DNA from: Tubiluchus corallicola
Taxonomy: Eukaryota > Priapulida > Priapulimorpha > Priapulimorphida > Tubiluchidae
NCBI GenBank assembly: GCA_030141605.1
Contig: JAQGDQ010000594.1
Coordinates: 1-64,000 of the forward strand
DNA length: 64,000 nucleotides
Direction: 5' to 3'
The notes below the pieces were generated by a model. The model made no database searches and had not been told where the DNA came from. It saw nothing but the letters and a program-made list of their open reading frames with translations. Of the stretch, positions 4,066 to 63,600 are shown in pieces (the stretch's first letter is position 1; every line of letters begins with the position of its first letter). Position numbers and translations under genes: made by a program.

Positions 4066-4402
4066 GGAGTAATTATGAGTTCAGCATGATTTTTCTGGGA
4101 TAATTATAACCCCAACAGGATTTTTCTGGGATAATTATGAGTCCAGTTGAATTTTTCAGAGTAATTACTAATCCAGCAGAATTTCTCTGGGATAATTGGG
4201 AATCCAGCAGGATTTTTTCTGGGGCAATTATAACTCCAGCAGGATTTTTTTCGGATAGTTATGAATCCGGCTAGATTTTTCAGAGTAATCAAGAATTCAG
4301 CTAGATATTTTCAGAGTAATTATGAATCCAGCAGGATTTTTCTGAGGTAATTATGAATCCAGCAGGTTTTTCTGAGGTAATTATGAATCCAGCTGGACAT
4401 TT
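4066..4402. repeat. 31-bp degenerate minisatellite overlapping the LACTB 3' end
   Basis: About ten to eleven copies of a unit close to taattatgaatccagcagg followed by atttttctgagg are arranged head to tail and are 70-95% alike. The last unit runs into the LACTB terminal exon, so the LACTB stop codon (minus-strand TAA at 4383-4381) and its last four or so codons are built from repeat sequence. The rest of the array would lie in the LACTB 3' UTR or immediately downstream. Confidence 0.85.
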
Positions 4403-7400
4403 TCAAAAACATTTGCTATTTCTAAAGCAGTTTTATTTAAGCCAACTTTTTCTAAATTTACCAGAATAGCGACGACAATGCCGAGCGGCAACTTACTATT
4501 GTGGTCACAGTTACTAACAAAATGATCTTCGCATCGTCCTGGCAACACTAGTAGAACACTGCTGCCACCAACGGCACCACCCGTATGCGACACATAGCTG
4601 CGCTGTCGGCGGCACTGACCACATTTCTGTTGTTCATCAATCACTCCCCATCCCAGAGCGTACAGCCCGTCTGAATCCCACGAGCAACCCGTATTTTCCA
4701 CTGGTCTCCACATTTCTTGAACCGTCTCCTTACGCAGATATCCCGGAAGACACTTACACGGCTTACTTTTAATGTCGGTCGTACGTTCTTTGGATTCCGT
4801 TATTAAATTTCCAGCCACCGTACCTTTGCAAGAAGTGGAATCAGCATTAACTGAATGTGGACATGAACGAACTTGCCCGCTGTACAACATGGCATTACCA
4901 AACTTGACCAGATCTCCGGCGGTTGACAAGATGCCTCCGCCTGCGTACTTGCAGCTGCAGTCTACGAACGGCGTGTTAATAATCCTCCCCTTCTTATCTT
5001 TCATGTAAAACCTGAAGAAAAATACGAGTAAAAAGTACAGTAGTCACAGTGTGCGTGTGTGCATCCACTAGCCATTTTTAGCTGGATAAATACTTGGTTG
5101 TGTAAGTGATTAAGAGAAGTTAATTATAAGAAATTTGGCGTTCATCATCATCATCATCATCATCTCTGGAGTCTCACGTCCTCTGACATGACCCTCCTGA
5201 TCACTTTACTCCATGCTGCCCTGTCACCCGCAACTTCCTATGTCTCTGTATTCTTGATATCTAATGGTGTGTTGATAAGATCTTTTTGAATGAAATTAAT
5301 GTAAGTCAGCAGCTGTTCTCCTTGCGGTTTCTTTTCTATCTGCAGTGCTTCTTTGAAAGCTAACTTTAATGGGCTGGCAGTCATATAACATGTCTTATCC
5401 ATCTTGACTCTCCATTTCTCTGCCTTGACTCTATTATACAGATTCTCTTTTAATATTTTCTTTGGCCATTTTATTCCAAGAATGCTCCTGTAATTTTTAT
5501 TTTTTGAAATGCACCAATTTCTGACGTGTTGTGCTTTGATTGTTCATAATTCTGAGTTGTAGAGAAACACAGTCTTGGTGTTGGTGGTTTGCGAATGTGC
5601 AGTTAATGACTGTTTTCATTTCTGAGCGAAATTCTCACTTTTATGCTTCAAAGTAATTGGAATAAGCTACCGATTAAAATTACGACTTGCAAAAAACTAA
5701 AGTCTTTCAAAAGGAAACAAAAAACTCATTTTTAAGCAGTATTTTAATGTATAAAAGGTAACTGTTTTGTAGATTTTTTATGACCTATAGACAAGTCTAA
5801 TTATAGTTCTAGTTTTTTAAGTACTTAAATTTAGCTTAGTACTTTTAATTGTGCCTTTGAAAAAATACTGAAGGAGCGTTTTATAAATAAAAAAATTATA
5901 ACACATATATTCAGATATTGATGAAAAAGCAAGAACAATAATCAAAAACAATGTAAGTACTTAGCATATCAATGATGATTACGATGATGATATTGATGAT
6001 GATGATAATTGTCATGACAACAAAAATAATAGCGACGACAATAAATGTGATACTGACAATAATCAGGACCACACCACTTGAAATAGGTCTTATAAGATCT
6101 ATGGCTTTCTGCTGCTGTGTGAGCAAAGACATAACTAAATGATTACAAATTAGGTATTATTCTATTCAGTAGAATCTCGGCTATCCAATCATACCATTTG
6201 TTTAAACATTTATAAGCGATTTAGTTGGATAAAATTGAGAAAAACGTGACCTCTTCAGGCGTCCCAAACTCTGCCTGTTGAGTAGCTTAGTCTGGTGCAC
6301 ACTTGCGTGATTGTACAGGCTAATTTATTGATCATCTGGTTTAGTACAGCCTAAGCTGTACAGAGATTCCAGGAAAAACCGACTGGTCAGCAATGACAAG
6401 TTAAGGTCGTTTCATCTTTTAACAACAATTTCTCCTTAAAAATAGAGGAGACTTGAGGCCAAAGTCTATCAGAGTGTTGTGTCTGGATATTGAAATTTTC
6501 TGCATTAGCCAATTTCACACATGTGGTACGGCAGAGTTTTATGATATAAACACTGTAGTTGCTGAAATTTTTTTAATTTTTCTTTTTTGCCAAAAATCTA
6601 TTTTTAATTTGTCTACGGTAAGTAAATGCTTTCCATATGTATTTTCGCATGAACATCATTTGTGTGACGAGTACAAACCTACAAAATGATCAAATATAAT
6701 GTAATTTTTGTTTAGTGAGAGTAGTTTTTCACGAACCTATGCTAAAGGCAGTGAACTCTTACGGTCCTGAAGGAGTTAAAGTTGATGTTTACAGTTCTCA
6801 TTAGCAGTCAAGTATTCATACAGCAACTCTTACTGACTTGGACTCAGAGGTATTATAATGCAAACTATGCGACTGATGACATAGTGACATATGAACGATG
6901 GAGGAACCACGTGCAGAAGGAGGTAAAAAGGAAAGGAAATTTTGCTACAAAAGCGATACACACCTTGCTCGGTTGTAAATCAGCGGCTCATTTTTGTCCA
7001 GCCAGGTGTTTTCCATTCCGATGTCTTTGAATAACTTCTGCATCCTGGATTCAAATGACTTGCCGCTGGCTCCCTCTATAATGGCCGCCAGCAAAGTGTA
7101 GCCAAATGTCGTGTATAAAAACTTTTTTCCTAAAATTAACATAAACTAGTCATTCTCACTTTAAGACATTTTTTGAAGTCCAAAGCCTACAGAAATACAC
7201 AACGCTATTCACTAAAATATAATAAGCCTTCTCACAGTTCCAGCGATTGATGATTGTCAAAAGGTCAAAATACAGACCTTTTGAGTCCGTTAAGTGTATC
7301 AGACAACGGTTCTAGCAATTGACGATGATCATGAAAAGGCTAAAGGTTAAGTGCACCAGACAACATATTTGTGTACACTTGACAATGCCTCACAGCCCAT

Positions 7401-10400: not shown

Positions 10401-13293
10401 TTAAAATGTAAAACGCAATAAGTATTATAACATCGTTCTTTCGGAAAAAGAATGACGTGGCCATGTTTTTCCACGGATAACTTCAGCCGCGGTTGCCGTT
10501 TTGTATGATGCTTATTGTATTGGACCAACAACTAATCATGACTCTAGGTTAATACTTAAATATCAAAAACATTTTGGATTTTTATATGCGTTAAAATGCA
10601 TATTTTTATTGTACTTCAAAATGGGATGGGATATGAAAAATCATCCCTTTTTCCTCTAAAGGAAGCAATAGAACCAAAGAATAAATGAATCGATAAAGAT
10701 CACCTTAACGCCTTTGTAGAATTTCTCGGGAAATTTCTTGACATACTCCTGCACTGGTTTGTCAATGTCAAGCTTTCCATCCTCCCACAAACGAGCCATA
10801 TCCGTTACCGTAATACACTTTGATATGCTAGCAATGCGCATGATGGCTTCCGGCAGGCAGCGAACTCTGTTCTCCAGGTCACAGTAACCCATGCCTTCTG
10901 ACCACACCTCCTTACCATCGACACTGACCGCTACGGTTAATCCAGGAGTGCCGACCTCATCCTGAACAAATAACTGTTGTCAAAATAATCACCGACACCA
11001 TCATTATAATCATTACCACCATCGGCATCATCATCATAACCAGCATCATCATCAAAATCTTCATTAACGCCATCATCACCCTCATCTTCAGCAACAATAA
11101 GCAATTAGGCATCTACATCTACTGCTAATACAGGTAGGCAATTAGCCTAGAAAACTGTAAAAAAGGTTAAAAAATTCATACTTCCGGACACAAGCAAATA
11201 AATAAAACATGTGATAACTCCTTATCATCAAATGATTAGCACCAATTTCAAAAAATAGTAGGAATCAGGGTTGTTGCCGAAACTGAATTTACAAACTGAA
11301 ATTTATGAACCATAAGAAACGTATGCCGAAACGAAACTGAACCCAAACATTTTTGCAGTACCAACTAGTATTAAAAGTGAAAAAAATTCTGAAATAAGTA
11401 AAATATTTTGTTTTTTTGTTTGCTTGATTGTTTATCTGCTGTGATGCAAAATTACTGATTAAAAAATTTTAATACAAAAAGGTACAAGGAAGTTTTGTAG
11501 TATATAACCTCAAGTTTGATGGAGTGGCTTACCTTAGAAAAGTGTATTTGGATTCAAGTATCCTTAATGATTAAGGTTTAAAGATCATAATCCTTCATTA
11601 AAAATAAACAAATTTTGTTTTATAGATATTTTGTTGCCTATATTTCATAAATAAAAATTTTGCTCAAATAAATTCAAACGTGGTTTGATATTTCGGTTGA
11701 TTGGGCCTGGAAACCCTATAACTTCACAGTAGTCAGCACTGAAAAATGCCACACTGCCGGTAAAAGCACGTGACAAACTTTATGTAAACGAGATTTTCGC
11801 TTTATTTGAACTTATTTAGTCAAGATTTTTCAGCAGTTTTTGGTATCTAGGTGAAAAGAAAAGGTAAATTGGTTAAATATTAGTAAAACCTCAGAAGAAT
11901 GCTATCGAAAATTATCCGAAATTTCAGCTACAAAATTTAAAAATTTTAATGAAACCGAAACTTAACCGAAAGTGCAAATATCGGCAAACCGAAAGGAAAA
12001 TTTCGTTTCGGTAACATCCTTCTACTTAGTATAGGTGCTTAGTGCAATTGCAAAGCAAAATTTTCCTAAAATAAAAAATATGAATTGCTAAGCATATGTA
12101 ACGACAAATGCCTTAGATGTAAAAATATGTAAAAATACATTTTCCAACTTACAGTTAACAAATTATTTCCCATTTAATTTTCTTTTGTAAATTTTTCATA
12201 TCCCTTCCCATCACCAGAACAGAGTTTGTGAAAAAGGCGAGGCATTTTAACAAACCCCTGTGGTTGTAGTCTTGTTATTTCACGGCCATCAGAGTTGTGA
12301 ATGACGGCAATACTAAATACAGAAAATAATTTTTTCTATTGAAATACCATTTCTTATCATTTCTAAGGTTTTCTCTATTTTGCATTAGGCTGGCAATAAA
12401 AATACTTCTGTTTCTGCGTGATCGCTCCGGTGATCTTTTCTACTACACGCCTAGCTGCAAATTTTACATTTTTGTGTGAGTGCGTTCATATACTTACCTG
12501 ACACAGTCATAGAAAAGCATATTTTTAAATTTAAAACATAAAATGCAATAATTATTATAACATCTTATGTTTCCGTGAGAGCACGGTCAAGTTTCTCTAC
12601 AGGTAGCTCTTGGCATTTCTTAAGAGACTGACATTCAGGCCAAGCAGTCACCGTTGTCACTATCCTAATTTAAAGTAAAAGCCCAGCCTCAACAGCAAAT
12701 TTTAGCAGAAGTTTAAGGAACACGTGTTGAAATGATATTCCACTTGCTTTTGTAAAATAATTAAGTAATTATATAAATAATTTAGGGATTTTACTTATAC
12801 CAATAGTGATATTTAATTATAGCAAATGATACGCGCAATTCAGCGGCAGGGCGGCCATTCACTGATGACACCAAGGTAGAACATTACTGCTAACCAGTGG
12901 GAAACAATTCAGCTTTAAACAATTGCAAAGCTTCAGAAATTTTTTTGCAAATTTTTTCTCCCTCTCCACTGGTATTTTCTGAACTCATGAAGCAAAACAG
13001 AAATGAAAGTCTTTTTGTCGCTGGACGTAAACATTTTTTGGACACCCTGTAAGAGGTAGTAGTGGGAAAATGCACACCTTTTTCCGTTGTAGGAGATCTC
13101 TGCACATCCCAATTGCATCACAGAGAGAAACTTTTCCCTTTAGCTGATTTTTTGTTGTTAAATTTTCAGGATCAAACGTCTCCTCAACAGGTGAGGCACT
13201 AAAAACAGACTTTGTTTTCGCTGCATAGATGGCAGTAGTCACGCCACACACGCCTCCGAGTAAAACAGCAATGCCATGCTTGGTAAAGAACAT
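4381..13293 (-). CDS. LACTB: LACTB-like serine beta-lactamase-family mitochondrial protein, six exons
   Basis: Six minus-strand exons join in phase to 509 codons (human LACTB has 547): 13293-13078, 10961-10704, 10072-9929, 7966-7852, 7129-6964 and 5011-4381. All have GT donors and AG acceptors. The N terminus (FFTKHGIAVLLGGVCGV) is a short hydrophobic segment suited to mitochondrial targeting or membrane anchoring. The class C beta-lactamase/penicillin-binding fold is shown by SISK (catalytic Ser117, Lys120), FLYTTFGYTLL (Tyr250) and SHTGGAVG (His442), matching the human SISK, YST and HTGG motifs in order. Human LACTB forms filaments in the mitochondrial intermembrane space and affects lipid metabolism; that role here is inference. 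Two differences from human are seen. Exon 3 ends in a short Lys/Glu-rich tail where human has a longer linker, and residues about 348-387 form a Cys- and Ser-rich insertion between GNAMLYSGQV and LPGYL. The stop lies in a minisatellite. The introns carry LINE relics, MITEs and dispersed repeats. Confidence 0.93.
5143..5610 (-). pseudogene. LINE reverse-transcriptase C-terminal relic with ATC-microsatellite tail
   Basis: Read on the minus strand, the segment gives pieces typical of a LINE ORF2 C terminus: VFLYNSELWTIKA, then RSILGIKWPKKI, then EKWRVK, then FKEALQIEKKPQGEQLLTYI, then EVAGDRAAWSKVIRRVMSED, ending at a stop at 5162-5160. An in-frame stop and missing residues show it is dead. Directly after the stop on the minus strand comes a (GAT)n run (about 5143-5165), as expected of a LINE with a simple-repeat 3' tail. 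It lies in the last LACTB intron, on the LACTB coding strand. Confidence 0.7.
5646..5898 (+). pseudogene. Second LINE 3' end: ORF2 terminus plus A-rich tail
   Basis: A short plus-strand frame (5646-5735) reads WNKLPIKITTCKKLKSFKRK and ends at TAA. This is the conserved last helix of many LINE ORF2 proteins (WN-LP, then FK-x-LK). It is followed by AT-rich sequence with AATAAA and an A-rich end near 5880-5898, as in a LINE 3' UTR. Only the tail of the element is present, as usual for 5'-truncated insertions. It lies in LACTB intron 5, antisense to the gene. Confidence 0.55.
6125..6785 (+). repeat. About 650-bp dispersed repeat, copy 1 of 2
   Basis: The sequence from about 6125 (acataactaaatgattacaa) to about 6785 (cggtcctgaaggagttaa) recurs in the same orientation at 56510-57150 with scattered substitutions and small indels. 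Shared landmarks are gtagcttagtctggt, cgtttcatcttttaaca, cagactgttgtgtctggat and tcaaatataatgtaat. No open frame or obvious termini were recognised, so class is unknown. This copy lies in LACTB intron 5. Confidence 0.7.
7221..7687. mobile_element. AATAAGCC-TIR MITE, copy 1
   Basis: It starts aataagccttctcacagttc and ends aaaaggcttatt, forming terminal inverted repeats of about 19 bp. The interior has landmarks shared with other copies: ttaagtgcaccagacaac, gtgtacacttgacaa, agcccatgctatt, gcagacggctttgct and aacctttgacctgcagcaa. A duplicated piece near the left end makes this copy longer than the others. It is non-coding and lies in the LACTB intron between exons 4 and 5. The class cannot be fixed without target-site duplications. 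Confidence 0.7.
8122..8534. mobile_element. AATAAGCC-TIR MITE, copy 2 (inverted relative to copy 1)
   Basis: This is the reverse-complement counterpart of the 7221-7687 element. It begins gaaagccttttcacagt and ends ggaactgtgaaaaggcttat. The interior carries the reversed landmarks agcaaagccgtctgc, tagtaggatcttgcttg and aagtgtgcacaaatgcgttg. Two copies in opposite orientation sit about 450 bp apart around LACTB exon 4. Confidence 0.7.
8736..8768 (+). other. 3' half of a tRNA-Leu-like sequence
   Basis: The segment catgggttcgaatcccac followed by ttctgacacca matches the T arm and acceptor end of animal tRNA-Leu (B box GGTTCGAATCC), with a CCA-like end. No complementary acceptor strand or A box is found upstream, so it is not a functional tRNA gene. 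It is most simply a tRNA-derived fragment or SINE piece. It lies in LACTB intron 3. Confidence 0.45.
8783..9218. mobile_element. 436-bp TIR element with TA target duplication (ATAAGCCGACC family)
   Basis: The ends are ccatatatactcgcaaataa and its near inverse ttatatgcgagtatatacgg, each flanked by TA, as for Tc1/mariner/pogo-like insertions. The interior repeats the motif atataagccgacc near both ends (about 8871 and 9147). It contains no transposase frame and is non-autonomous. It lies in LACTB intron 3. Confidence 0.75.
9541..9775. repeat. Dispersed repeat, inverted match to 26325-26530
   Basis: It contains taattattcaaatatta, cttttatagacaataaaa, tgtatattttgga and ggttttcctta, which reappear in reverse complement at 26325-26530 in RFK intron 3. 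Identity is moderate. No coding sequence or clear termini are seen. Confidence 0.5.
10237..10660. repeat. Dispersed repeats in LACTB intron 2
   Basis: The first half (10270-10460: ggcaataaaaatacttctg-like start, then cgttcatatactta and aaaacgcaataa) recurs in direct orientation at 12385-12590. The second half (10500-10660: gttaaaatgcatattttt, then acttcaaaatgggatgggat) matches the right part of the repeats at 55705-56330 and 60905-61495. It is probably a composite of two elements. No genes. Confidence 0.5.
10962..13077. other. LACTB intron 1: no gene seen
   Basis: The intron holds a degenerate CAT/ATC-rich run (10990-11095), a dispersed repeat copy (12385-12590) and otherwise AT-rich sequence without recognisable structure. 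Confidence 0.5.
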
Positions 13294-16892: not shown

Positions 16893-16901
16893 GTGACGTA
16901 A
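16893..16901 (+). promoter_or_regulatory. CRE-like TGACGTAAT upstream of RFK
   Basis: A TGACGTAA octamer lies about 22 bp before the RFK start codon. It resembles an ATF/CREB site and could belong to the core promoter or 5' UTR. Short motifs of this kind occur by chance, so support is weak. Confidence 0.2.
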
Positions 16902-19900: not shown

Positions 19901-22900
19901 CTCCCTTAATAACAGACTAATAATCACAATGAGAAAATAAAATAATGGCGATAGTGACATCTGGTGAGAGGAAAAGAATTTTTTGGGGAGTTCTGCAATT
20001 TGCTGTCAGATTTACGTGTACAGGCTACATAGTTGATTTATTTTGCTCAGTCATTGGACCTTTGCTCGGATTTATCACAATTGCAAACATTATCATGGAC
20101 TATGTTCCCTAATGTCAAGGTGTCTCTATTCTTAATCAGTTTGTTGTTAGTGCTCGCCGTATTTACAACGTTCAGAATGTTGAAGTGATCTAGACAGTTT
20201 GACTCTGAAATTATTTCGACCAGAAGATTGTGTTAGAATTAACAGCTTTTCGAATTCTGTCAATGTGCTTTCTTTTGTACAAATGAACAGTGCACAACTG
20301 TTTATGAAACATATGTTTTTAGTGCTTTTTGAGCAACACTTTATGTTTCAACTCTCTACAGTAACTGTTAGTTGCTCTTTGTCCTATTAGATAAATTAGT
20401 ATCTGATTTGCTGTTCGCATTTCTGGTGGTAATGATGTTCAAGGCTTGGTTGCCTTTTTGTACATACGGTCGAATAGTGAAGGGATTTGGTCGTGGCAGC
20501 TCTCAGCTATTGATGCCAACAGGTGCGAGAAATCACCCATGATCTGGCTTCGCTTTCTTTTACTTGTAAACAGAGAAACATATTAAGATTCTGCTTACAG
20601 TAGCTGACAATTGTGTGCTTAGAGCGGAATTTTCTTGATGTACCCGTGGTTTTTATTATTTATTTATTTGTGCTTTTTTGTTTTTTTTTAATAACTCGCA
20701 CACGCGCTGGGCTAGGTTTACAATGATCATATTATAACTTTTTGAAACTCGCTAATAACTTGTTAAGAAATTACCTGTGTGACCACGTTATGTGCTTGCT
20801 TGAAAAGACAAGCAACAAAAGACTTAGTTAATAATTATATTGGTTGAACAGAGACAATATTATGCCCTTCGCAGCCTTCAGTTGTAGACCAATGGTGAAA
20901 AAGAGGCAACGTCCAAATTCAGTAAAGCTTTTATTATCAAGCACAACAGTACCTGATGTTAGCTACTTTCAAAAACATTTTTTGTTTTAAAAACAAAAGC
21001 CCTCACATAATTATAACATCTCCTGTCACAAAAGCAGAATCTTACCACAGTTTTTAGCACGGTCAAAAGCGTCGATTAGTTGAATTTGCTTTTCGGTTAC
21101 ATGCCATGTGCTAATGGTGGAATATATTTAATGAAAGAGTGAGCCAGAATGAATGAAAAGATGGAATGAACCGGCATGTATTAAAATTTCTAAGCTGAGA
21201 GAAATTAAATATAAAGCATACAGTGCTATGAGCATCAAACCATAAGCCTCGACTATAACTCATACATTTCAGCAAAGTTTGGCCTCAAAAATTTAGCCAA
21301 TGTTTGTGGGTTCAGTCCATCTTTAGAGCTAAAATTTCAGCCAGAATTAGAAGCGAAACAAGTGCACATGCTTCGGTACATACAACTATATTTTAATGAT
21401 AAGACATTGGTTAGAATTTTGATGCTCATTTTTCTATCAACCTGTTCACATGACCTTATGACATTGTATTAATTAATTTTAAAGGAAAGAACATACCACT
21501 TGTTTTTAAGGGAAAAGACACATTGTTGTTTTATTGTTATCACATAAACTAAGAAAAATACAACAAAGAAATTTTCAAAAAGCTGTCTGTAAAGCATAAA
21601 GTTAATTTATACTACTGTAAAGAAATTTTCAGACCGAGGTAGTTGCCGCCATTCACTTGAAAGTTCTGATGTAACTGATGGACTTGATGATTTTTCGTAC
21701 GTGCGCCAAGGCTTTTTGCAAGTGCGGGCTGCTTAAACTAATTCAAATTTGTGCAGCTTGTCTATTGTTCGTGTAGAAACTTAGCTATCTTATTTTGCAA
21801 AAACATTTAGACTTGGAACGTAATTGACAGCGCGCTTATTTTCTTCAATCAATGAACAATGCCATTGGTGGAAAAATTGGCATTCAAAGTTGACCCCCTG
21901 GCGTGAAACAATCACAACTTTAAAATGATTTTACTAATTACACGAGGTCCTGGAATGCTTGACCTTTTCTTTAGTGACAGTTGCAACTAGTGTTAGAAGA
22001 AAATGAAGATGACAGCTACATAAAATGAAAAGTTTTAGCAACACATTGAGTCAATATAATGAATTTCCTGTCAACTGAATTAAAGGCAGGACAGACAGAC
22101 GAACGTACAAGTAGACTAAATTTTCACAAGTGTGAAGATTTTTGCAACTATTACTGTTCATGATCAATTGCAGCTTATTGTACTTTTGCAGCTAACTATC
22201 CGGAAGAGGTGGTCGACGTTTTACCAGATAAAGTTGAGTGTGGTATCTACTATGGCTGGGCACAGGTTGATAATGGTGAAGTGTACAAGATGGTTATGAA
22301 TATCGGATGGTGCCCTTTTTACCGCAACAAGCAGAAGTCAATGGTGAGTGGTTCGAGGGTTTTTTAAAACACAAGTAAACACTCTCCATAAATGAAAGCA
22401 TAAATAAGTTGTCTTCAAATTTTGTATCACTTAACTGCTATCTTATTGCATGCAGGGCTTACGGTAGCAGTACGTTGTATAAAACTTGTGAATTTAAACT
22501 CTCACAGTGACAGTTTGGTACTGCCATTTTGGTGGTAAGTCATTTGAAAAAGTTTACATAACACTGTGTAAAGTTTGAAAAATAATCAGAGCATTCGTAG
22601 GACACTCTTTGCTAATTACACTGTACTTTGTGGTTTGCCGGACCTCAGTTTTATGGATATCGGAAAAATCGGATGAAATCTGGACTGTTAAAAGTCCTGA
22701 ATACTACGGACACAGTCAGTTGTTCTGCGAGCTGACTGCTAGTTGGTGGGCCGTCACTTTGTTTACATCATTACATCTGTCCAACGAAACAGGACATGTA
22801 GTTTGTATGTGCGGAGTGGCCTGTGCTAGATGTTTTTGAGACAATTAGGCGATTGATTCTACATCACCGTGAGTCTAATACATAGCTCCTACTGTATTAA

Positions 22901-25900
22901 CTTAGTATCACTAGCATTTAGTGGTCAGTCAGGTGTACAAAACGTATGTACTTGTATAATAATTGCAGTGTTTACATTACTAATTCATTTTTAGAACAGA
23001 ATTAAACAATATTTGCTGTTTTAATGCATCAAATTAGGTAAAATATTTGTTGATAAAGTAAAAATTGGCATTGAGCAAAGTAGAAAAATCGTTAAGTTAA
23101 AATGAAACGGTGCGTGGCTACATGAAAAAAAGTGTCAACTGTTCAGCGTTGTTAAAACAAAACGTCGCTAAACGGGGAGTCGTTAAACGAGGACTTATTT
23201 CACTTCTGTATAAGATGATTGATGTTGTAACACTATCACATGATGGTATATTGGCAGTCTAGAAATGTCACGAATAATTTGTTTATGTTACTTCTGGAAG
23301 CAGTCATTTAGAGCGGAAACTTCTAAATATTGGTGGTGCATACATTTTGCACCCATACTGGCAACATTTTCAAATTTTCTCCTAAATTATTAAAAGACAA
23401 TAAAAGGGGTACCTGAAGTAGGTTTCAGAAAAATCACCTTAAAAATTATATTACTCTATTGCAATTTTAGTGTATGTCATACATGTGTTAAAAGGAACTA
23501 ATGTTTGTTTTCATTTTAAATTTCCTGCAATACTGTTCCGACGGCGCCATTACATGATGTCACCTATGGAAATGTAAATCAGGCAGTGTTAAGTTAAATC
23601 CCAAAAAACTTTCCATGCAAATCTATATTGCCTAGTGTTTTGCTTTTCCCGCTAGAAAGAATTATGTAACTAGAAATAATTTAAAATGTTTGTGCCAATT
23701 GGTAAAATGTCACTGGATCACCCTCCAGGGTGCGCCACTCACTAACCATAAAACGTATTTTTATACTTATTGACAAGATACAGTAATTGAAAATTTTTTA
23801 CTTAGTTATTAACATGTATGCTACGAATGCTCTGATTAGTTTTTCAAATTTTACCCAATGTTATCTAAACTTGTTTGAAACAAACTGCCATTAAAATGGC
23901 TGCGCCTAATGGTCATTGCGGGAGTTTAAATTTACAAGTTTTATACAGCATGACTGCAGACGCAAGCCCTGCATGCAAAAAGGCAGTATGTAAGTGGTAT
24001 AAAATTCAAGATGAATTTTTTATGCTTTATGTAAATGGAGGGTTTTCTTGTGCTGTAACAGTATTTTGCATTATTTTTATTTGTAAAATTTTTTGACGTC
24101 TTAAGAAGCAATTTTCCTGCAATGTTTAACGGGGGTGACTAATGGGGGTGAAAAGGGGTGACTTGTTAATGTAAAGTTGGTTTAGAAAGGCCGTCTGCTC
24201 TTTACAATTTGCGTTTCTATAAGCACTGAATGACTGTTGCAAATTTTTTACTAGTAGAAAGAAGAAGGACTTTGAACTGTGTCATATTTACCGTTGGTGA
24301 ACTGATTGTTCGAAATCTGTAGTTGCCTGGGTGTAACTTGGACACTAAATATATTACATTGACTCTTAGATGTTGTCTAGAGCAACTGTGTGATTTTCTT
24401 TTAGGGTTGTGCTTTCATCTGATAGAAGAGATTCAGTTTTGGTTCCGGAAATAACACGATAAATTAACAAATTTATTAATTTCCTCTTATACAAAATTCC
24501 TATTAAAAGTATATGATACCAAAAAATTAGAGCTATGGGAAGGTAAAAATAAATATATCTAAGTATACGGAGTATCTAAACATACGGTGGAAAAAGGACT
24601 CTTGAATTCGATACTTACTTATATGTCGGATTTTTTCTGTCTGTTGTTTATCATAATATGAAGAGAATAATTGCTAGTCAAAGCTCACATCGCAAGAGTA
24701 AATGTGTAAAAAAAGTGAATGAGTCATTTAAAAAAATTATTTCTTCACAAAAGGTTATAGTATACTGCACAAAATTTACAAGTACAGACGTGCATGCATG
24801 GGTGGTATCAGAAACATTACCTGAGGTTAGATATAACCGCATTCACTTTTTCAAAAACACATAGGGAATTTGCTGTCATTACTTGGCATTAACAAGCATT
24901 TTACAGGTCCAGCAATTGGCGATAGTCGTGAAAAGGCCATTGGTTAAGTGTACCAGACAACGCATTTGTGTGCACTTGACAACGTCTTGCAGCCCATGCT
25001 ATTATAATACTGTAGTAACAGTTTAACAGCTAGTTAGAACCTTACCTAGTTTAGTACACGCAAGTAAATAAGTAAAGTCCACGTAAAACAACTGAAGTTA
25101 CTGAACTGACGTGACAGGTGGCTTTGCTTTACCCATGTCACATGAAGGTTGTATTTAAGATGCATTGCTGTAGTACACTTAACCTTTGACCTACAGAAAC
25201 TGCATGGAACAAAACATTGAAAATGCTTATGGACAATCCTGGATGGTTTGTGTGCAGGTTTTTTTTGAACTCGAGCAAAACAAACCATACAGCAAAAATA
25301 GTCTATTATTATCCGAAATTTGTTGTAACGGGATCCATTATAACTAGAATTTACTACAATGGATATAAATAATGTAGATTTTTTTTAATATTGTTACAGG
25401 AAACGCACATTCTTCACGAGTTCCCGGAGGACTTTTATGGAGCGACGTTAAAAGTTGCCATTTTAGGTTATCTCCGTCCTGAGAAGTCTTTTCCATCAAT
25501 AGGTAAATCTTCATTGGTTAGAGTTGCTTAATAACGCTTTACGAATAAATTTCGACTTAACTGGCAGCATCCTACCTTCGTACATGCAGGGCCTCCGATT
25601 TTCTGTTTCATTTTTGACCAAATTCCGTTTCAAAGAATCGTCAATTCCGTTTCAATTCCACTTCACAGAAATGAGAAGCTACATGGCCCTGTAAATAATA
25701 TTTACCATCAAATTATGTGCTGTGCCATAGATTGTAATTAAAAAATAAATTTTTATATGAATTAAGTATGTAGTCTATCAGTTATCAGTATTTGGCTAGG
25801 ATAAAATAAGATGCCAACATTTAATTTGCGCAAAAAAGTTACAGAACAATAGCCTATCATATTTGTACAAATCATCAGGGAAATTCCCCGGCTAGCTGTC

Positions 25901-27696
25901 ACACTCATAACATTGTCAGATCGTGTTCATGTGAACAGGGGAAACCTTTCGAGAAACGTACACCTATTCGCTACAAGCTCGCGCTGAAGAATTTCCCATA
26001 TTTCTTGTGGTAAACACAAAAACAACGCGAAAGTTGCATAAAAGATAAAACTCAGGGAAGAACTTTGTCGTGAAAGGCTGAAACAACTGCTTAGTTTTGC
26101 CGGAATGTAACAAGTCGAGAAAATTCCGTCTCTACTATGCATTAAATTTGCTGAAAAGTCGGAAATCAGGCAAATTCCGTTTTGCATTGCAATTTTCGTT
26201 TCAGTTGCGGAAATCGGAGGCCCTGTACATGACATGATACTTTTGTTTGTTTTAGTACTACTGACAGTTTAAGAGCTGTGTTTTAATTAAGCGTAATTAG
26301 AGTACATAAGTCACAAGGTGAGAAAGCGTTAAAGGAAAACCAGATGATTGATTAGAATCAATCTCATTTTATTTTACTGTCCAAAATATACATTTTCTTG
26401 CCTATAAAAGTTAGCAATGTTTTCTGATATTTGAATAATTAGCTTAGACAGTTAATTATTCAAATATCGCTATTGAGAAAGCTATCGCTTACGTCAGAAA
26501 CTAACCGCAGTTTGTGCGATGGTAGGCATCTTCCCTGTCCGTCAAGGTCATTTGCGTGAGCGAGGATTGCTATAAGATGCTGTGAAGTTATGTCACAAAA
26601 ATGGGCTTCATGATCATGCTTATCGTGGTACCGCACCTATTTGTCGGCCACGTAAATGTGACAGAAAGCCACCATTGTCAGTCTTCAACAAAATTTAGCT
26701 ATCCGAGATTATTATTATTATTTAAAGCTTCGATTTAAAAAAAGCTGTTATAGTTTTTGATATTTTAGAGCATTCTTTTTTTTTTGAACTAATGTCAACA
26801 CAATCGTTCAGTTTCCTTTAATTCTCAGCATGCATGCAGTGATTATGGTAAGTCGACGGCTTGCTGAATTAAGTTAAGATACAATTGTTAAAATGCAGTT
26901 TTTTAAATTTGCTGTGGTTGGTACTTACTGTGACTCACTAACTGATGCGAGATGTTGCCAACCAAAAGGCATCCTCTTTGCATTTGCTTAACCCTCCGTC
27001 ACCGGAAATGGGGTGGAACAACACTCAGGGTGTTTATCTAGTTACACCTTTTTACCATGAAGCCGCCAATACCTGTCTTCTTTTGTGTTTAAATGGTTAT
27101 CTGCTTACTATAAGAACATGTTATTTGACCTCTTACAAGTCTGTGTTGCTTAGTAATATTACTTACAACTCTGAGGTCTGTCTTCACCCCTGCATCGATT
27201 TTGCTGCTATATTGACGTTCTCCATTATTTAATATAGGTAAAAATGAGAAAGTAAACAAATGCTGAGCATTTTTATAGTACATGTTAGGTGGCTTGTAGA
27301 AAAAATGGCCTACATCAGGCCATCGAGGCTTGTTATGTAAAGTAAAGTTACACAGGTCAAGTGACGGTTGTATTAAGATGCATTGCTGTGGTATACGTAA
27401 CCTTTGACCTATAACTGCGCATTACACATTAAAACTGTAAAAAGACATTTATTTTGCAGTCACAAAGTTGGCGGTATAAACAGGCTTGACTGTATTTACA
27501 AAGTTTTGCATACTCATAAATATTTTGGTTGCCATAACGCTGAACACGTGATATATTTATTTTGAGTTTTTTACATTTTTCAGTCGCTCTAATAGAAGCC
27601 ATACAAGAAGATATCAGACAAGCTCGACTGCTACTCGATCTACCGGAGAATCTCAAATACCGAGACAGTAACTTCTTCAAGACTAGTATATCATGA
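16923..27696 (+). CDS. RFK: Riboflavin kinase (ATP:riboflavin 5'-phosphotransferase), four exons
   Basis: Exons 16923-17007, 22192-22343, 25400-25502 and 27584-27696 join in phase (85+152+103+113 bp) to 150 codons, close to the 155 of human RFK. The enzyme converts riboflavin and ATP to FMN in the cytosol. Exon 1 encodes LPYFASGEVVKGFGRGCKEL, the glycine-rich ATP loop, and joins exon 2 inside the P-T-A-N motif (residues 27-30) that binds Mg-ATP. Exon 2 carries CGIYYGWA, MNIGW and the KSM immediately before Glu80, the catalytic glutamate equivalent (ETHILHEF in exon 3). Exon 3 continues with DFYGATLKVAILGYLRPEK. Exon 4 gives ALIEAIQEDI and LLDLPENL near the C terminus. Introns are 1.9-5.2 kb and contain hAT-like, MITE and other repeats. 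A second version of exon 1 lies at 20432-20522 in intron 1. The start is the first ATG before the conserved region, with no upstream coding evidence. Confidence 0.95.
17008..19041. other. Left part of RFK intron 1: nothing recognised
   Basis: The sequence is AT-rich, with short meaningless open frames on both strands and no repeat that I could match elsewhere in the window. Confidence 0.4.
19042..19378. mobile_element. hAT-type MITE with perfect 8-bp target-site duplication
   Basis: The element has perfect 13-bp terminal inverted repeats, CAGGGCCTATTTC and GAAATAGGCCCTG. It is flanked on both sides by the identical octamer cctctgca (19034-19041 and 19379-19386), the 8-bp duplication typical of the hAT superfamily. 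The interior is GC-richer than its surroundings near the left end (gaggcccgaggaagtggggc). It has no transposase and so depends on an autonomous element elsewhere. It sits in RFK intron 1, upstream of the duplicated exon. Confidence 0.9.
20432..20522 (+). CDS. RFK: Duplicated, alternative RFK first coding exon
   Basis: This 91-bp open segment encodes MMFKAWLPFCTYGRIVKGFG followed by RGSSQLLMPT, and then meets a donor (ACAG then gtgcga). It parallels RFK exon 1, which ends IPT with the same ACAG|gt split. Splicing to exon 2 at 22192 would therefore be in phase and give a 152-residue protein. Fourteen of 24 aligned residues match exon 1. The VKGFGRG core is identical, yet six of its seven codons differ synonymously, a sign of selection on protein sequence. 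Changes in the loop (CKELGI in exon 1, SSQLLM here) lie beside the nucleotide-binding motif. The frame is open upstream to a TAG at 20369-20371, and the encoded segment before the ATG is hydrophobic but lacks an ATG. An alternative first exon with its own promoter is the simplest reading; a young pseudo-exon is the alternative. Confidence 0.7.
20523..22191. other. RFK intron 1, right part: no gene seen
   Basis: The sequence is AT-rich, with no repeat match elsewhere in the window that I noticed. The branch and acceptor region tgtacttttgcag precedes exon 2. Confidence 0.4.
22425..22650. repeat. Dispersed repeat family R7, copy 1
   Basis: The landmarks are ttgtataaaacttgtgaatt, cattttggtggt, a cluster ending agtttgaaaaataatcagag and cattcgtag. 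The same series recurs at 58545-58960, 58975-59235 and 60290-60570, and in reverse at 23820-24100 and 50860-51090. No termini or coding sequence are clear. Confidence 0.65.
23520..24110. repeat. Dispersed repeat family R7, copy 2 (reverse orientation)
   Basis: In reverse relative to the copy at 58545, this one contains tgctctgattagtttttcaa, ttatctaaacttgtttgaaa, taaaatggctgcgcctaatg, gggagtttaaatttacaagt and gcagtatgtaagtgg. The left half (aactttccatgcaa, cactggatcaccctcc) matches 50660-50830. The 73-codon open frame at 23875-24096 lies entirely in the repeat and is not taken as a gene. Confidence 0.65.
24904..25231. mobile_element. AATAAGCC-TIR MITE, copy 3 (end-truncated)
   Basis: The interior landmarks match copies at 7221 and 37077: ttaagtgtaccagacaacgc, gtgtgcacttgacaac, gcagcccatgctatta, gtggctttgctttaccc and aacctttgacctacagaaac. 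The TIRs are eroded or missing. It lies in RFK intron 2. Confidence 0.65.
25587..26225. mobile_element. Non-autonomous TIR element, CAGGGCC ends, 639 bp
   Basis: The termini are CAGGGCCTCCGATTT and AAATCGGAGGCCCTG, a perfect 15-bp inverted repeat. A tacatg lies immediately outside both ends (25581-25586 and 26226-26231). The CAGGGCC start is like the hAT elements at 19042 and 35993, but only six flanking bases match, so the usual 8-bp hAT duplication is not fully seen. No transposase is found. The element occupies the start of RFK intron 3; the minus-strand 102-codon frame inside it is a by-product. Confidence 0.8.
26325..26530. repeat. Inverted match to 9541-9775 with a perfect 16-bp hairpin
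   Basis: Reverse-complement partner of the repeat at 9541. It also contains a perfect hairpin: gatatttgaataatta at 26426-26441 and its exact inverse at 26453-26468, with an 11-base loop. The copy at 9541 has only one arm, so the second arm was gained by one copy or lost by the other. Confidence 0.55.
26531..27583. other. RFK intron 3, right part
   Basis: A fragment of the AATAAGCC MITE lies at about 27335-27440 (caagtgacggttgtattaag, then aacctttgacc). The plus-strand 95-codon frame at 26945-27232 has no recognised domain or splice support. Confidence 0.4.
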
Positions 27697-29990: not shown

Positions 29991-32156
29991 GTTAGTATCA
30001 ATTGCCATATGTATTGTAATTTAATTGATAGAGCTGTTATGGACACGTGACTTATCAAAAAAAAAAAAAACGTGCACTAATCGTCCTACTGCAAGGCTGA
30101 TAGTCAGCGTTTTTTAGGACTGCTTAAGATTACAGGCACAATCATCGTCAAACTTGTTGAACCTGTTTCGGTGAACTTGTTGCAAACTTTTTCCACTTTC
30201 AACGTGTGAAATTTGGTTAACTTTGGTTAAATACTGTTAATCCAATGTTGCAGTACCGACACCTTGCCGCACAAGCCACGAAACCTACCACCAGCACACA
30301 AATTCTGTTTAAACTTGACCTGTTAAAAGACCGCTTTGGATTTAGCTAAACCACAGCATCAGATTTAGCTTGTCTAGAGTATCATTAAAACTGTTATTAG
30401 AATCAACTGGTTAGTTTTCTACTGGTACCAGACATGTTATTCATGCTGTATTGTACTAAGTATCTTAAATGCCATTTTAGGGAACAGGTCTTAAACTTAA
30501 GGAACTAAATTGTCCAAAAGTTCTTTTAATGTGATAATGTTAGACAATGTGACCAGCTAAATAAATTTTATTCGTTAACTTTCCTTTGAAAATTTGAGAA
30601 GATGTTATTCTAATGCAATATTGGCTTCAAAAATAGCTTACAATCGCATTACAATGATTGTAATTTAACAAGAATAAGGCTATGTATTATATGCATTGTT
30701 CAACTGTCTAATAGCAGTATGAAACTAATGCACTGTTTAATTTTAATATTAGGAAACATTTGCTGGTTTCCTGGCAAAATCTGTTTGCGAATTAGCAATT
30801 ATGTTTACACAAATACAATATCTAAAAAGTATGATGAAAATGACAATTAGATTAGGAGCTTATAGTGAATTAGCGAATATATGAGTGGAATGATACTAAT
30901 TTATTGATGTTAGCGCAGCAACATAATAAATTAAACGCAAATGTTGAAAAGTGCGTAAATTTCAATGGTTTATATCCTATTATGTAGAAAATCTGTTGTC
31001 TTAATGCTTCTAATGTACTGTTAATAAACCATTGATTGTTCTAGATGAATGTAATGTTTTGAAGTTTTCCTTTCTACACTTACAACACGTTCAGACAAGT
31101 TAGCTCGCCAAGTAACTTACAAACGTGTAAAATTCGTATCAGAGAGTTTACTTGTCAACAGTAACTCGCAAAGCAGTTCACACTTGCGAGTTTGCTACCA
31201 GAGAGAAACCTCGCGACAAACAAGTAAGCAAAACAAAAGCATAAAGGCAAAATTATTATGCAATATTTGATTAAGCATAAATACATCATAACTAGCTTAG
31301 TATAAATACGTATAAATACACTATTAACTATACAGTAACGTTCAGTTTGCTGTACAAAGCAAAATATACATAATAAATTCTAATACTGATGCCATGGCAA
31401 CGTAACAATGTATTTTGGCAAGTATAAATAGTGACTGTATTAAGTTTATTTGACTAATTTATTCACATGACTAGAATTATGACCTCATAGCCTAGATACT
31501 CAAGCGTAGACAAATTTCACTAGCCTTGAGTAAATATATAAAAAATGAAAGATAAATAGTAAGTACGATGTACTTTTGACTAGCATTGCAATGAGCCGAG
31601 CTTAGTGAGTATAATTTGGCTAGCTTAAACAAATACATAAAAAATTGTAAATAGTGAAGTGTACCATGGACTGCTTTATCTATAACCTGTGCCATTCTTA
31701 CAGTGTAACTGATAATACATTGCATCATCCTTTATAAATACGTTACTACATTCACTAGGTACACAAAAAGGTAGACATGATACTTGGCTTACTTTACATT
31801 TGGCTGTACATATTATTATAGAAACGTTTATGACCAGAAACAATTCAAAATAAAAACCCTAATGCCTCATTCACATTGCATAAACAATTCAAAATAAAAA
31901 ATCTAATGCCATCGACACTGCATACGGCTTGAAGCTTGAGTAAGGGTGTGTTCATTGTTTAGAATGTTAAAAGAGAACTGACCAGTACTAATCTGCCGAC
32001 AATTTTCGCTTTTTGTGCTACAAGAAATGGATACGCTGCAGCCGCACTCAGAAGGAAACAGGTGTGAACGGAGGAAGTTCACACTTTCAGATGAAGCAAC
32101 ATTTGACAATGTGAATCAGAAATAAGAAATCACAGAATGTACAACACAGATGATGT
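29991..32156. other. Gene-poor stretch
   Basis: No gene is recognised. Near 31080-31215 there is a single diverged copy of the motif family in the 44-bp array at 42449 (taactcgcaaagcagttcac, acttgcgagtttgct). A short near-direct repeat (acaattcaaaataaaaa) occurs near 31840-31900. Confidence 0.4.
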
Positions 32157-33330
32157 GACTCAACTTTAGTCCGGTTGTTAAGTCCTTGGTTTGTGCAATA
32201 CCGATGTTATGACTCAACTTTAGTCTTGCCGTTAAGTCCTTGGTTTGTACAATACAGATGACATGACTCAACTTTAGTCCTGTCGTTAAGTCCTTGGTTT
32301 GTACAATACAGATGATATGACTCAGCTTTAGTCCTGTCGTTAAGTCCTTGCTTTGTGCAGTACCAATGATAAGACTCAACTTTAGTCCTGTTGTTAAGTC
32401 CTTGCTTTGTGCAGTACCAATGATAAGACTCAACTTTAGTCCTGTTGTTAAGTCCTTGGTTTGTACAATACAGATGACATGACTCAACTTTAGTCCTGTT
32501 GTTAAGTCCTTGGTTTGTACAATACAGATGATAAGACTCAACTTTAGTCCTGTTGTTAAGTCCTTGCTTTGTGCAGTACCAATGATAAGATTCAACTTTA
32601 GTCCTGTTGTTAAGTCCTTGCTTTGTGCAGTACCAATGATAAGACTCAACTTTAGTCCTGTTGTTAAGTCCTTGGTTTGCGCAATACCGATGTCATGACT
32701 CAACTTTAGTCCTGTCGTTAAGTCCTTGGTTTGTACAACACAGATGATATGACTCAACTTTAGTCCTGTTGTTAAGTCCTTGGTTTGTGCAATACCGATG
32801 TTAAGACTCAACTTTAGTCTCGTCGTTAAGTCCTTGGTTTGTACAATACAGATGACATGACTCAACTTTAGTCCTGTCGTTAAGTCCTTGGTTTGTACAA
32901 TACAGATGATATGACTCAGCTTTAGTCCTGTCGTTAAGTCCTTGCTTTGTGCAGTACCAATGCTAAGACTCAACTTTAGTCCTGTTGTTAAGTCCTTGCT
33001 TTGTGCAGTACCAATGATAAGACTCAACTTTAGTCCTGTTGTTAAGTCCTTGGTTTGTACAATACAGATGACATGACTCAACTTTAGTCCTGTTGTTAAG
33101 TCCTTGCTTTGTGCAGTACCAATGATAAGACTCAACTTTAGTCCTGTTGTTAAGTCCTTGGTTTGCGCAATACCGATGTCATGACTCAACTTTAGTCCTG
33201 TCGTTAAGTCCTTGGTTTGCGCAATACCGATGTCATGACTCAACTTTAGTCCTGTTGTTAAGTCCTTGGTTTGTGCAATACCGATGTTAAGACTCAACTT
33301 TAGTCTCGTCGTTAAGTCCTTGGCTTTATC
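32157..33330 (-). repeat. 54-bp minisatellite, about 22 copies, open for 413 codons on the minus strand
   Basis: The unit is aagtccttggtttgtgcaat followed by accgatgttatgactcaact and ttagtcctgttgtt. Since 54 is a multiple of three, minus-strand units read KDLTTGLKLSHDIGIAQT without stops, and the frame is open from 33357 down to 32116. Three variant types (ending HDIGIAQT, LIIGTAQS, HVICIVQT) are interspersed. The block at 32248 and onwards recurs at 32842, exactly 11 units later, almost unchanged, so there is a higher-order repeat of 594 bp. No signal peptide, domain or splice support was found, and the ATG frame begins only six codons or so outside the array. I treat it as a minisatellite with an incidental frame. 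Confidence 0.85.
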
Positions 33331-33357
33331 ATTAAAAAAGGAAACAAAAGTTTTCAC

Positions 33358-34026
33358 ATAAATTTACAATGGAAGACAAAATTGACACCACCAGCAATAG
33401 TTGACTGCAAACACCCTCACCCTTTCAAAGTGGTACGATCAACTTTCAGAACACACAAAATCATTTGGCAAAAACAGCATAAGTGCCCACTAAACTTACT
33501 GACTTCACGTTCGAACTTTTCTAGACACTATTACCCCACGTCTTGCTAAGAAAAATGTAAAACTTATAAAATAATACAAAATTAATCATTGAATCATTGT
33601 ACAACGGTTTACTGCAGATAAATATATGTGACTTCAGGCTTTAGCCTAACAAGGAATAAAATCACATATGTGCACCCACAATAAACCATTACACAATCAT
33701 TCAATTACGAATAAATGCAAAATCACGGGTGTGAAGTTTAACACGTCGCAAGTAAAATTTCCCCCAAGAGCTATTAACTAATATTGCCCATTTCACATGT
33801 GCTCTTTCATTCTCACTTATTCTATCATTCTCCCTCATGCAAATAAACTGAAAAGTCTTGCAAAAATTTTTTCAAAAACATGCGATTACAAAGAGTAAAC
33901 GAACTACGGCAACATATTCGGGTGCTTGTCAAAATAAGCGGTCTCATCAGGAGAAACAATGAACACAAAAGGTGAAGTGCTTATTATGATGAAAAACTAG
34001 CCTCCATTACGACAAGTCTTAGGAGC
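33358..34026. other. No gene seen
   Basis: AT-rich spacer. Nothing matched elsewhere in the window. Confidence 0.35.
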
Positions 34027-60600: not shown

Positions 60601-63600
60601 TACCATACTTTAAAATAACCTGTTCTACCCCTTTAATAAGATTAATAATAAAGCAAATTTATCGACATTACAACTATGCTTTTGTCAAAAATGAAGGAAA
60701 ATATTAAATAATGCTCATAAATATAGAAATTTAACAGGAAGTATAATTTTACACAATATCAAGTACTACAATTTATGCTCTAACTAAGATTAAAATTTCC
60801 AGATATTAACGAATTAGTGAACTCTGTTGTGTATAAATTATATGCATCAAGTGTTGTGGTGGCATATGTTCTTGTTCAAGAACACTCCTTTATCTTGCTG
60901 TAGACTGTTAAAGGAATACCAATCTTGAACTAAAGCTCAATACAATGTACCCAATAAACTATTGGAAGGAAACGTATTATTTTTTCCAGAATGACTTTCA
61001 TGAAAGAATTATTACCACAGAATTACCACAGAAACTCCCGTTCACGCGGTTCGTTATTTGCTTTTACCCGCATTTCGTCATTCATTTGTTAGACGGGCAC
61101 CAGCGCCTTCATCTCGGAAACTGGCGCTGTACTTTTCGGTTCAGACGTGACGTTGTGCACACGTTCGAAAGCTCATGCATGAGCACAGCTAGAAATTTGA
61201 ATTTTAAATTTTGAAATTTGCCGAGTTTTTGTATTTCACACTTAATGTTGTGCAGTGGCACTGTTCTTCCATTTTCGTTTTTGCAAACATGTGAACAAGC
61301 TCACGAAATGTTTGTGCTGATGAAAATTACGTTTACCTGTGATGTCGTCACTATTTGGGCTCGCGAACATTAATTAATTCATTATTATTTAATTATCAGA
61401 AGCACTTTGGCATTATTATACGTGTTAAAATGTAGACTTTTTACTTTGCTTCAAAATGTGTTATGATATGAAAATTCACTCTGTTTTCCTGCAAATCATT
61501 TGGTAAAATGCACTGGAATACAAATTCGTAGTTTCTTTTTATTTTTGATACGTAATAACAGTTACATCCAAGTAGTGAATTCGCTTCATCCATATTTTAA
61601 GAAATGATTTAATTGCTTTGCTACCTTGTCTAAAACTCATTCTTATCACTTTCAACGAGTTTTAACCAATTAAGCGACAAGTAGTCAAATCTGCCAAAAT
61701 GATTCGTTATTTTCCATCTCTCTAGGATTCAACTGCGACAGTTTATTGCAATGATCGGCCAATTTCCACAATTTTCCCAATTAGCACGATTGCGATGTCA
61801 ATCGTCATTCCGTACCATCACAAGCCGTCATCCCGTTTGATGCCTTTTTGCATTTTGGTTCTCAATAAATAATGTGTTTCTTCAATGTCGCTTCAATGTC
61901 ATCGGGGAATTGAAATCACAGTTTAACCAGGCTTGATCAACCGATAAATGTTGTTTGCAAAGTGCCTTCTGCACCCACATTTCACAAAAAGGTGAAATAT
62001 TTGCTAAGCCATCTCTTAAGCTACGAATTTCGTACTGTTTTAGTTAGTAAAAAAGTGCGACAAATCAACGAAAAGCTTGCTTCTGTCTGCCAGCGTATTG
62101 TATCTTTGGATAGAAGAAAGAGAACAAGAATGCACAGAACAAGAATGCACTAAATAATTATAGATTTTTTTATTTAATAATAATGATAGCACAATCACTA
62201 ATGAAGCAGTGAATCCACACCACACAATACACACCATTCACTACCACAATACACACCATTCACTACCACAATACACACCATTCACTACCACAATACACAC
62301 CATTCACTACCACAATACACACCATTCACTACCACAATACACACCATTCACTACCACAATACACACCATTCACTACCACAATACACACCATTCACTACCA
62401 CAATACACACCATTCACTACCACAATACACACCATTCACTACCACAATACACACCATTCACTACCACAATACACACCATTCACTACCACAATACACACCA
62501 TTCACTACCACAATACACACCATTCACTACCACAATACACACCATTCACTACCACAAGACACAAGATTCGTTACCACAATACACACCATTCACTACCACA
62601 ATACACACCATTCACTACCACAATACACACCATTCACTACCACAATACACACCATTCCACTACCACAATACACACCATTCACTACCACAAGACACAAGAT
62701 TCGTTACCACAATACACACCATTCACTACCACAATACACACCATTCACTACCACAATACACACCATTCACTACCACAATACACACCATTCACTACCACAA
62801 TACACACCATTCACTACCACAATACACACCATTCACTACCACAATACACACCATTCACTACCACAAGACACAAGATTCGTTACCACAATACACACCATTC
62901 ACTACCACAATACACACCATTCACTACCACAATACACACCATTCACTACCACAATACACACCATTCACTACCACAATACACACCATTTACTACCACAATA
63001 TACACCATTCATTACCACAAGACACAACATTGATTACCACAATACACACCATTCACTACCACAATACACAACCCTCAGGTTTAACTTTCGGGTTTATTGC
63101 TCTTATACCATTGCTATTATTACATCATTTACTTCGTACTTATTTACTTTAAGTTATCTACAGAAGCATGCATAACTATAATTATTTTTTCATTTAAGTA
63201 AGGTGAGTTTGTTAATGACCGTATGGTCGTACACTCACCTCGCACTAGTCAAATTATTTTATTTAAAGTTTATTAATGTGTTTGATATTGTATTTTTTAT
63301 TGTGTGAAATAAAATTCATAGTTCATAGTTCCTCATTAGCACAATACACAAGATTCATTACCACAATACACACCATTCACTACCACAATACACAACCTTC
63401 ATTACCACAATGCACAACATTCATTATCACAATACACAATGTTCATTACGCAATACATGCCATTCATTACCACAATACACAACCTTCATTACCACAATGC
63501 ACAACATTCATTATCACAATACGCAATACACAATATTTGTTACCATTAGTGTTCGTTCTACCATGTTATTAGTGACATTTTAAACCTACTCTCTTCTTAC

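Follow-up and report, generated by a model that had tools for sequence, protein, structure and literature searches.

Vitamin B2 is turned into FMN and FAD through a single entry step, that of riboflavin kinase (RFK), for which there is normally one gene and one enzyme form. The window (the whole stretch of 64,000 nts that was analysed) contains one animal-type RFK gene, on the + strand, and the first-pass annotation placed inside its first intron a further 91 nt frame encoding an RFK N terminus. Could this frame serve as an alternative first exon from which a second form of the enzyme is made, or is it the remnant of a duplicate that has lost its role? The exons of the gene, of which 2–4 were mapped by reading the sequence, are given here with the extra frame (exon 1B) and one upstream element. 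All borders of exons 1A, 2, 3 and 4 are GT/AG.

16894..16901, + strand: TGACGTAA, CRE-like, a possible but weak core promoter element for 1A, 22 nt before its start codon
16923..17007, + strand: RFK exon 1A, the canonical first coding exon, MASPLPYFASGEVVKGFGRGCKELGIPT + G
20432..20522, + strand: RFK exon 1B, duplicated, candidate alternative first exon, MMFKAWLPFCTYGRIVKGFGRGSSQLLMPT + G, with its donor gt at 20523-20524
22192..22343, + strand: RFK exon 2, common to both forms
25400..25502, + strand: RFK exon 3, common to both forms
27584..27696, + strand: RFK exon 4 including the stop codon, common to both forms

Joining exon 1A to exons 2–4 gives a protein of 150 amino acids, which shares 63% of 145 aligned residues with human RFK and scores 134.7 bits against the Pfam Flavokinase profile (PF01687; curated cut-off 19.6). 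Set beside the eukaryotic enzymes (human 1NB0/1Q9S, S. pombe 1N06), this isoform A is a plain orthologue. Exon 1A on its own scores 24.9 bits. The window contains the octamer upstream of it 7 times, mostly away from starts; 1.8 occurrences would be expected, and each of 100 shuffles has fewer than 7. Being over-represented throughout, the octamer is weak evidence for a 1A promoter.

The coordinates, frame and donor claimed for exon 1B hold. Its reading frame is open from 20372 to 20539, with two ATGs at the start of the exon (20432 and 20435), and its end, CCAACAG/gtgcgag, interrupts the same codon in the same phase as the end of 1A, CCAACAG/gtttaat. It lies on the same strand as exons 1A and 2 and between them, upstream of the common exons and with its donor intact. 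That it is a true homologue of an RFK exon was borne out by a search of 177,635 distinct PDB sequences with its 30-residue peptide alone, which gave four matches at E up to 10, all of them riboflavin kinases (best E values: human 0.001, T. brucei 0.07, S. pombe 0.1). The peptide aligns to positions 4–25 of the Flavokinase profile at 13.8 bits, 11 bits below 1A and under a cut-off (19.6 bits) that is set for whole domains rather than single exons. When 1B is spliced in silico to exons 2–4 the score is 123.9 bits, above the cut-off and mostly due to the common exons. Searches of the 343-Mb assembly with exon 1A and with exon 1B each recover the 1A/1B pair only. This uniqueness, together with the RFK-only PDB matches, rules out a chance match.

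Other trivial origins can also be set aside. The similarity ends exactly at the exon boundary, where there is a good donor, and is not followed by exon 2, which dismisses a retrocopy or processed fragment. A recent copy, an allele or an assembly duplicate is rejected by a dS of 1.26 and by flanking DNA without similarity. The DNA of the 1B region is single copy in the assembly apart from a dispersed repeat downstream, and this repeat (at about 20613-20844, dozens of copies) leaves 1B uncovered, so the exon is not repeat-borne. The repeat itself begins about 90 nt downstream of the 1B donor and consists of two adjoining units of about 110 nt, with more than 40 matches scored genome-wide.

How long ago the two exons parted, and under what constraint, can be judged from 24 aligned codons. 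Thirteen residues are identical, 8 of them specified by different codons, and in the VKGFGRG core six of the seven codons differ synonymously, as had been noted (GTT AAA GGT TTT GGA CGA GGA versus GTG AAG GGA TTT GGT CGT GGC). For the closing L, P and T the two exons use the same codons. By the NG86 method dN is 0.377 and dS 1.265, an omega of 0.30. Differences occupy 14 of 48 first and second positions and 13 of 24 third positions, a contrast so modest (Fisher P 0.07) that the codon count is compatible with constraint on 1A only; omega is likewise not far from the value of about 0.5 expected for one constrained and one free copy. The earlier claim of protein-level selection on both exons is thus not carried by the six-of-seven count. 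What does fit long selection on 1B is the pattern of its changes (P 0.0002–0.02), and where the changes fall is the stronger argument.

Exon 1B keeps 10 of the 12 columns that are invariant in human, S. pombe, T. brucei and 1A, the exceptions being V to I and G to L, while 9 of the 12 variable columns differ (hypergeometric P 0.006). Simulated random changes at first and second positions reproduce such a placement with P 0.004 for 14 changes and 0.02 for 12. Similarity of 1B to four outside RFKs, compared with random changes, gives P 0.0002 (13–14 changes) or 0.002 (11 changes), and about 0.01–0.07 when only 7–9 changes are laid on the 1B lineage. All these P values come from 24 codons of one species, and they are optimistic because the stretch was noticed for its conservation. 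Among random sequences with a comparable load of changes, about 55–60% would carry a stop. In its GRGSSQL, exon 1B also retains an S and a Q of the human protein at sites where 1A has changed to C and E, so that a late origin as a copy of 1A is excluded. The DNA flanking the two exons does not align. These comparisons suggest that 1B is an ancient exon duplicate on which selection acted at the protein level during much of its existence, and whose loss, if it has been lost, may be recent.

The part of RFK that exon 1 specifies runs from the first strand through the GFGRG turn and the FlapI loop to the PT of the PTAN motif. The human enzyme has three mobile loops, FlapI, FlapII and L5; a salt bridge between Lys20 and Asp88 links FlapI to L5, and the active-site motif is 25-PTAN-28 (PMC10086132). 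Lys20 in this numbering corresponds to the K of GRGSK, which 1A retains and for which 1B has Ser, as does T. brucei RFK. The residue two before the Pro-Thr of PTAN is changed too, from Gly to Leu (LGIPT to LLMPT). This site is near-invariant: the Gly is part of the 205-G-[FY]-P-T consensus drawn from 500 FAD synthetases (PMC2573891), and it is present in 32 of 33 bacterial RFK domains in one HMM-found set and in 55 of 56 genuine matches in another, with Gln as the exception. (Only HMM-found loci were used in judging the Gly; 80 loci from a contig scan with the pattern LG[IF]PTAN were left out.) In isoform B, PTAN is preserved across the junction of 1B with exon 2, and the G-[FYI]-P-T-A-N consensus of the ATP/Mg site is broken by the Leu that precedes it. 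The proposal that the differences between the exons touch the loop beside the ATP site overlooked the replacement of the near-invariant Gly and the loss of the FlapI Lys. From the sequence, these two changes point either to altered catalysis or to decay. RFK activity is absent from plant chloroplast FAD synthetases in which the PTAN site has been lost (PMC2972280), a reminder, by analogy, that this stretch is likely sensitive to change. Isoform B, if made, would more likely have altered or low activity than be a plain second kinase. It is conceivable, as a tentative and rather improbable extension, that choice of first exon yields two RFKs, of which the 1B form, with its rebuilt FlapI (Lys to Ser, Gly to Leu), would be a low-activity or kinase-dead regulatory form.

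For use as an exon, 1B needs splice signals and a route by which transcripts reach it. With a generic matrix, not one trained on this genome, its donor (CAG/GTGCGA) scores 5.4, in the top 0.9% of the region's GTs and above the donor of 1A (CAG/GTTTAA), which at -4.6 is no better than 43% of random GTs in the region. Exons 2 and 3 score 6.4 and 1.5. So weak a donor on 1A is unusual for a housekeeping gene, given the competing better donor on 1B. Upstream of 1B are two acceptor-like sites, ending at 20361 and 20390, both within the top 2% of the region's AGs and comparable to the three true RFK acceptors.

20345..20361, + strand: candidate splice acceptor upstream of 1B, ttcaactctctacag followed by ta, scoring like true RFK acceptors
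20373..20390, + strand: second candidate acceptor upstream of 1B, gctctttgtcctattag followed by at, in frame with the phase-1 donor of 1A

Use of the second would make 1B an internal exon of 132 nt. On these signals 1B may have a start of its own and be a first exon, or it may be a second exon, preceded by a non-coding one. A search for promoter elements of 1B found none, and nothing like TGACGTAA was seen ahead of it. Trans-splicing to 1B was considered with a query that we take to be the ascidian-type spliced leader; the genome has four exact matches, and neither of the two that were read has the right orientation and a GT donor, which leaves trans-splicing unsupported.

The explanation toward which we lean, with limited confidence, is that 1B arose long ago by tandem duplication of the first coding exon of RFK and has been retained as an alternative first exon. 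Transcription would begin at 1B, from a start site of its own or from an unmapped 5′ exon, non-coding and spliced to 20362 or 20391, and splicing from 20522 to 22192 would attach 1B to the common exons 2–4 to specify a second RFK of 152 amino acids. Its first beta strand and glycine-rich GFGRG turn would be as in isoform A, and its FlapI over the ATP site would be altered from CKELGIPT to SSQLLMPT. Homology, uniqueness, the open frame, matching phase, a good donor and long divergence with RFK-like substitutions lead to this reading; transcription, splicing and translation of 1B, and a functional difference from the 1A form, are inferred. The Leu in place of the Gly before PTAN, the low Pfam score and the lack of a promoter element in the search count against it.

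The same three points bear on a possible, less probable reading, in which 1B worked for a long time as a duplicate, has since lost its role, and has an intact frame through its shortness and the recency of the loss. At a near-invariant site, Gly to Leu takes at least 2 coding changes; the profile score is weak, no promoter is visible, and the 5′ part of the exon is poorly conserved (YFAS to FCTY). However, the frame is still open and the donor still strong in an exon that retains 10 of 12 invariant columns, and at this load of changes about 55–60% of random changes would have given a stop. The two acceptors raise another, distinctly unlikely, interpretation, that the 132 nt at 20391-20522 act as an internal or cassette exon, which is joined to an unmapped 5′ non-coding exon or is inserted in frame after 1A as 44 residues, including the hydrophobic stretch LVSDLLFAFLVVMMFKAWLPF. 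Both acceptors rank in the top 2% of the region's AGs, 132 is divisible by three, an exon beginning at 20391 would continue the frame of the 1A donor, and the first ATG downstream of either acceptor is that at 20432. Yet in-frame linkage has a one-in-three chance, two good acceptors per 100 nt are possible by chance in T-rich sequence, and a protein with both 1A and 1B would have its first strand and loop twice, an arrangement that the RFK barrel could hardly accommodate.

It is very improbable that 1B, without being joined to exon 2, is a remnant of a tandem second RFK gene or part of a nested gene. An old duplication at the DNA level, with flanks that have lost similarity, would accord with such an origin, but second copies of exons 2–4 occur nowhere in the genome, and the other Flavokinase matches are bacterial ribF genes on microbial contigs. 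A second RFK gene elsewhere is rejected on the same grounds: the matches on contigs C755 (94075-97461, murA-ribF-ileS) and C1762 (67020-70319, truB-ribF) are bacterial, and the host therefore has one RFK gene. On C1762 the ribF reading is broken close to the start and again, by a TAG, towards the end of the Flavokinase domain. This animal assembly is mixed with at least two bacterial genomes, of symbionts or contaminants.

Within the window, the second RFK intron has what resembles a decayed foldback element, a long imperfect inverted repeat (22395-22618 and 23803-24028) with several arms of 28–74 nt that are 76–86% complementary. Tandem repeat arrays at 32116-33363 and 62164-63583 have long open frames in several registers (KDLTTGLKLS-type and HTIHYHNT-type) and are most likely satellite DNA rather than genes. 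Two other coding regions were recognised.

4381-5043 and 10656-10979, - strand: exons of a serine beta-lactamase-like (LACTB-type) gene, Pfam PF00144
42776-43015, - strand: exon of a Rab/Ras-family GTPase, PF00071

Genes with multiple variable first exons include vertebrate UGT1, GCNT2 and the clustered protocadherins (PMC1885805, PMC3325998). Like these, the RFK locus has tandem homologous first coding exons ahead of common downstream exons, and as in UGT1 the first exon sets part of the enzyme's active site. Unlike them it has only two copies of a short exon (85–91 nt), in a gene for a housekeeping kinase, and is known here from sequence alone. There is also a likeness to tandem duplicated exon substitution events (PMC9741552), in which neighbouring homologous exons of equal phase and ancient divergence swap one stretch of protein. 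The published cases, however, usually keep key functional residues and have expression support, whereas 1B changes a near-invariant Gly. From the eukaryotic RFKs (human 1NB0/1Q9S, S. pombe 1N06) isoform B would differ in FlapI. FAD synthase, the next enzyme of the same pathway, likewise has N-terminal isoforms: the splice isoforms of human FLAD1 differ in N terminus and location (PMC4406087, PMC6017331). They do not arise from duplicated exons, and RFK isoforms of the 1A/1B kind are not described there. In the open-access full-text literature that was searched, no paper on an alternative first exon of RFK was found. Alternative duplicated first exons are a mechanism already known; the RFK case is new if 1B transcripts exist, and otherwise it is an exon relic.

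As a relic, 1B would show how long a duplicated exon can keep its frame. If it is used, the exon pair would serve as a natural experiment that shows which residues of FlapI are needed for the reaction, and the animal would tune the step by which vitamin B2 enters FMN and FAD through exchange of the strand and loop lying over the ATP site.
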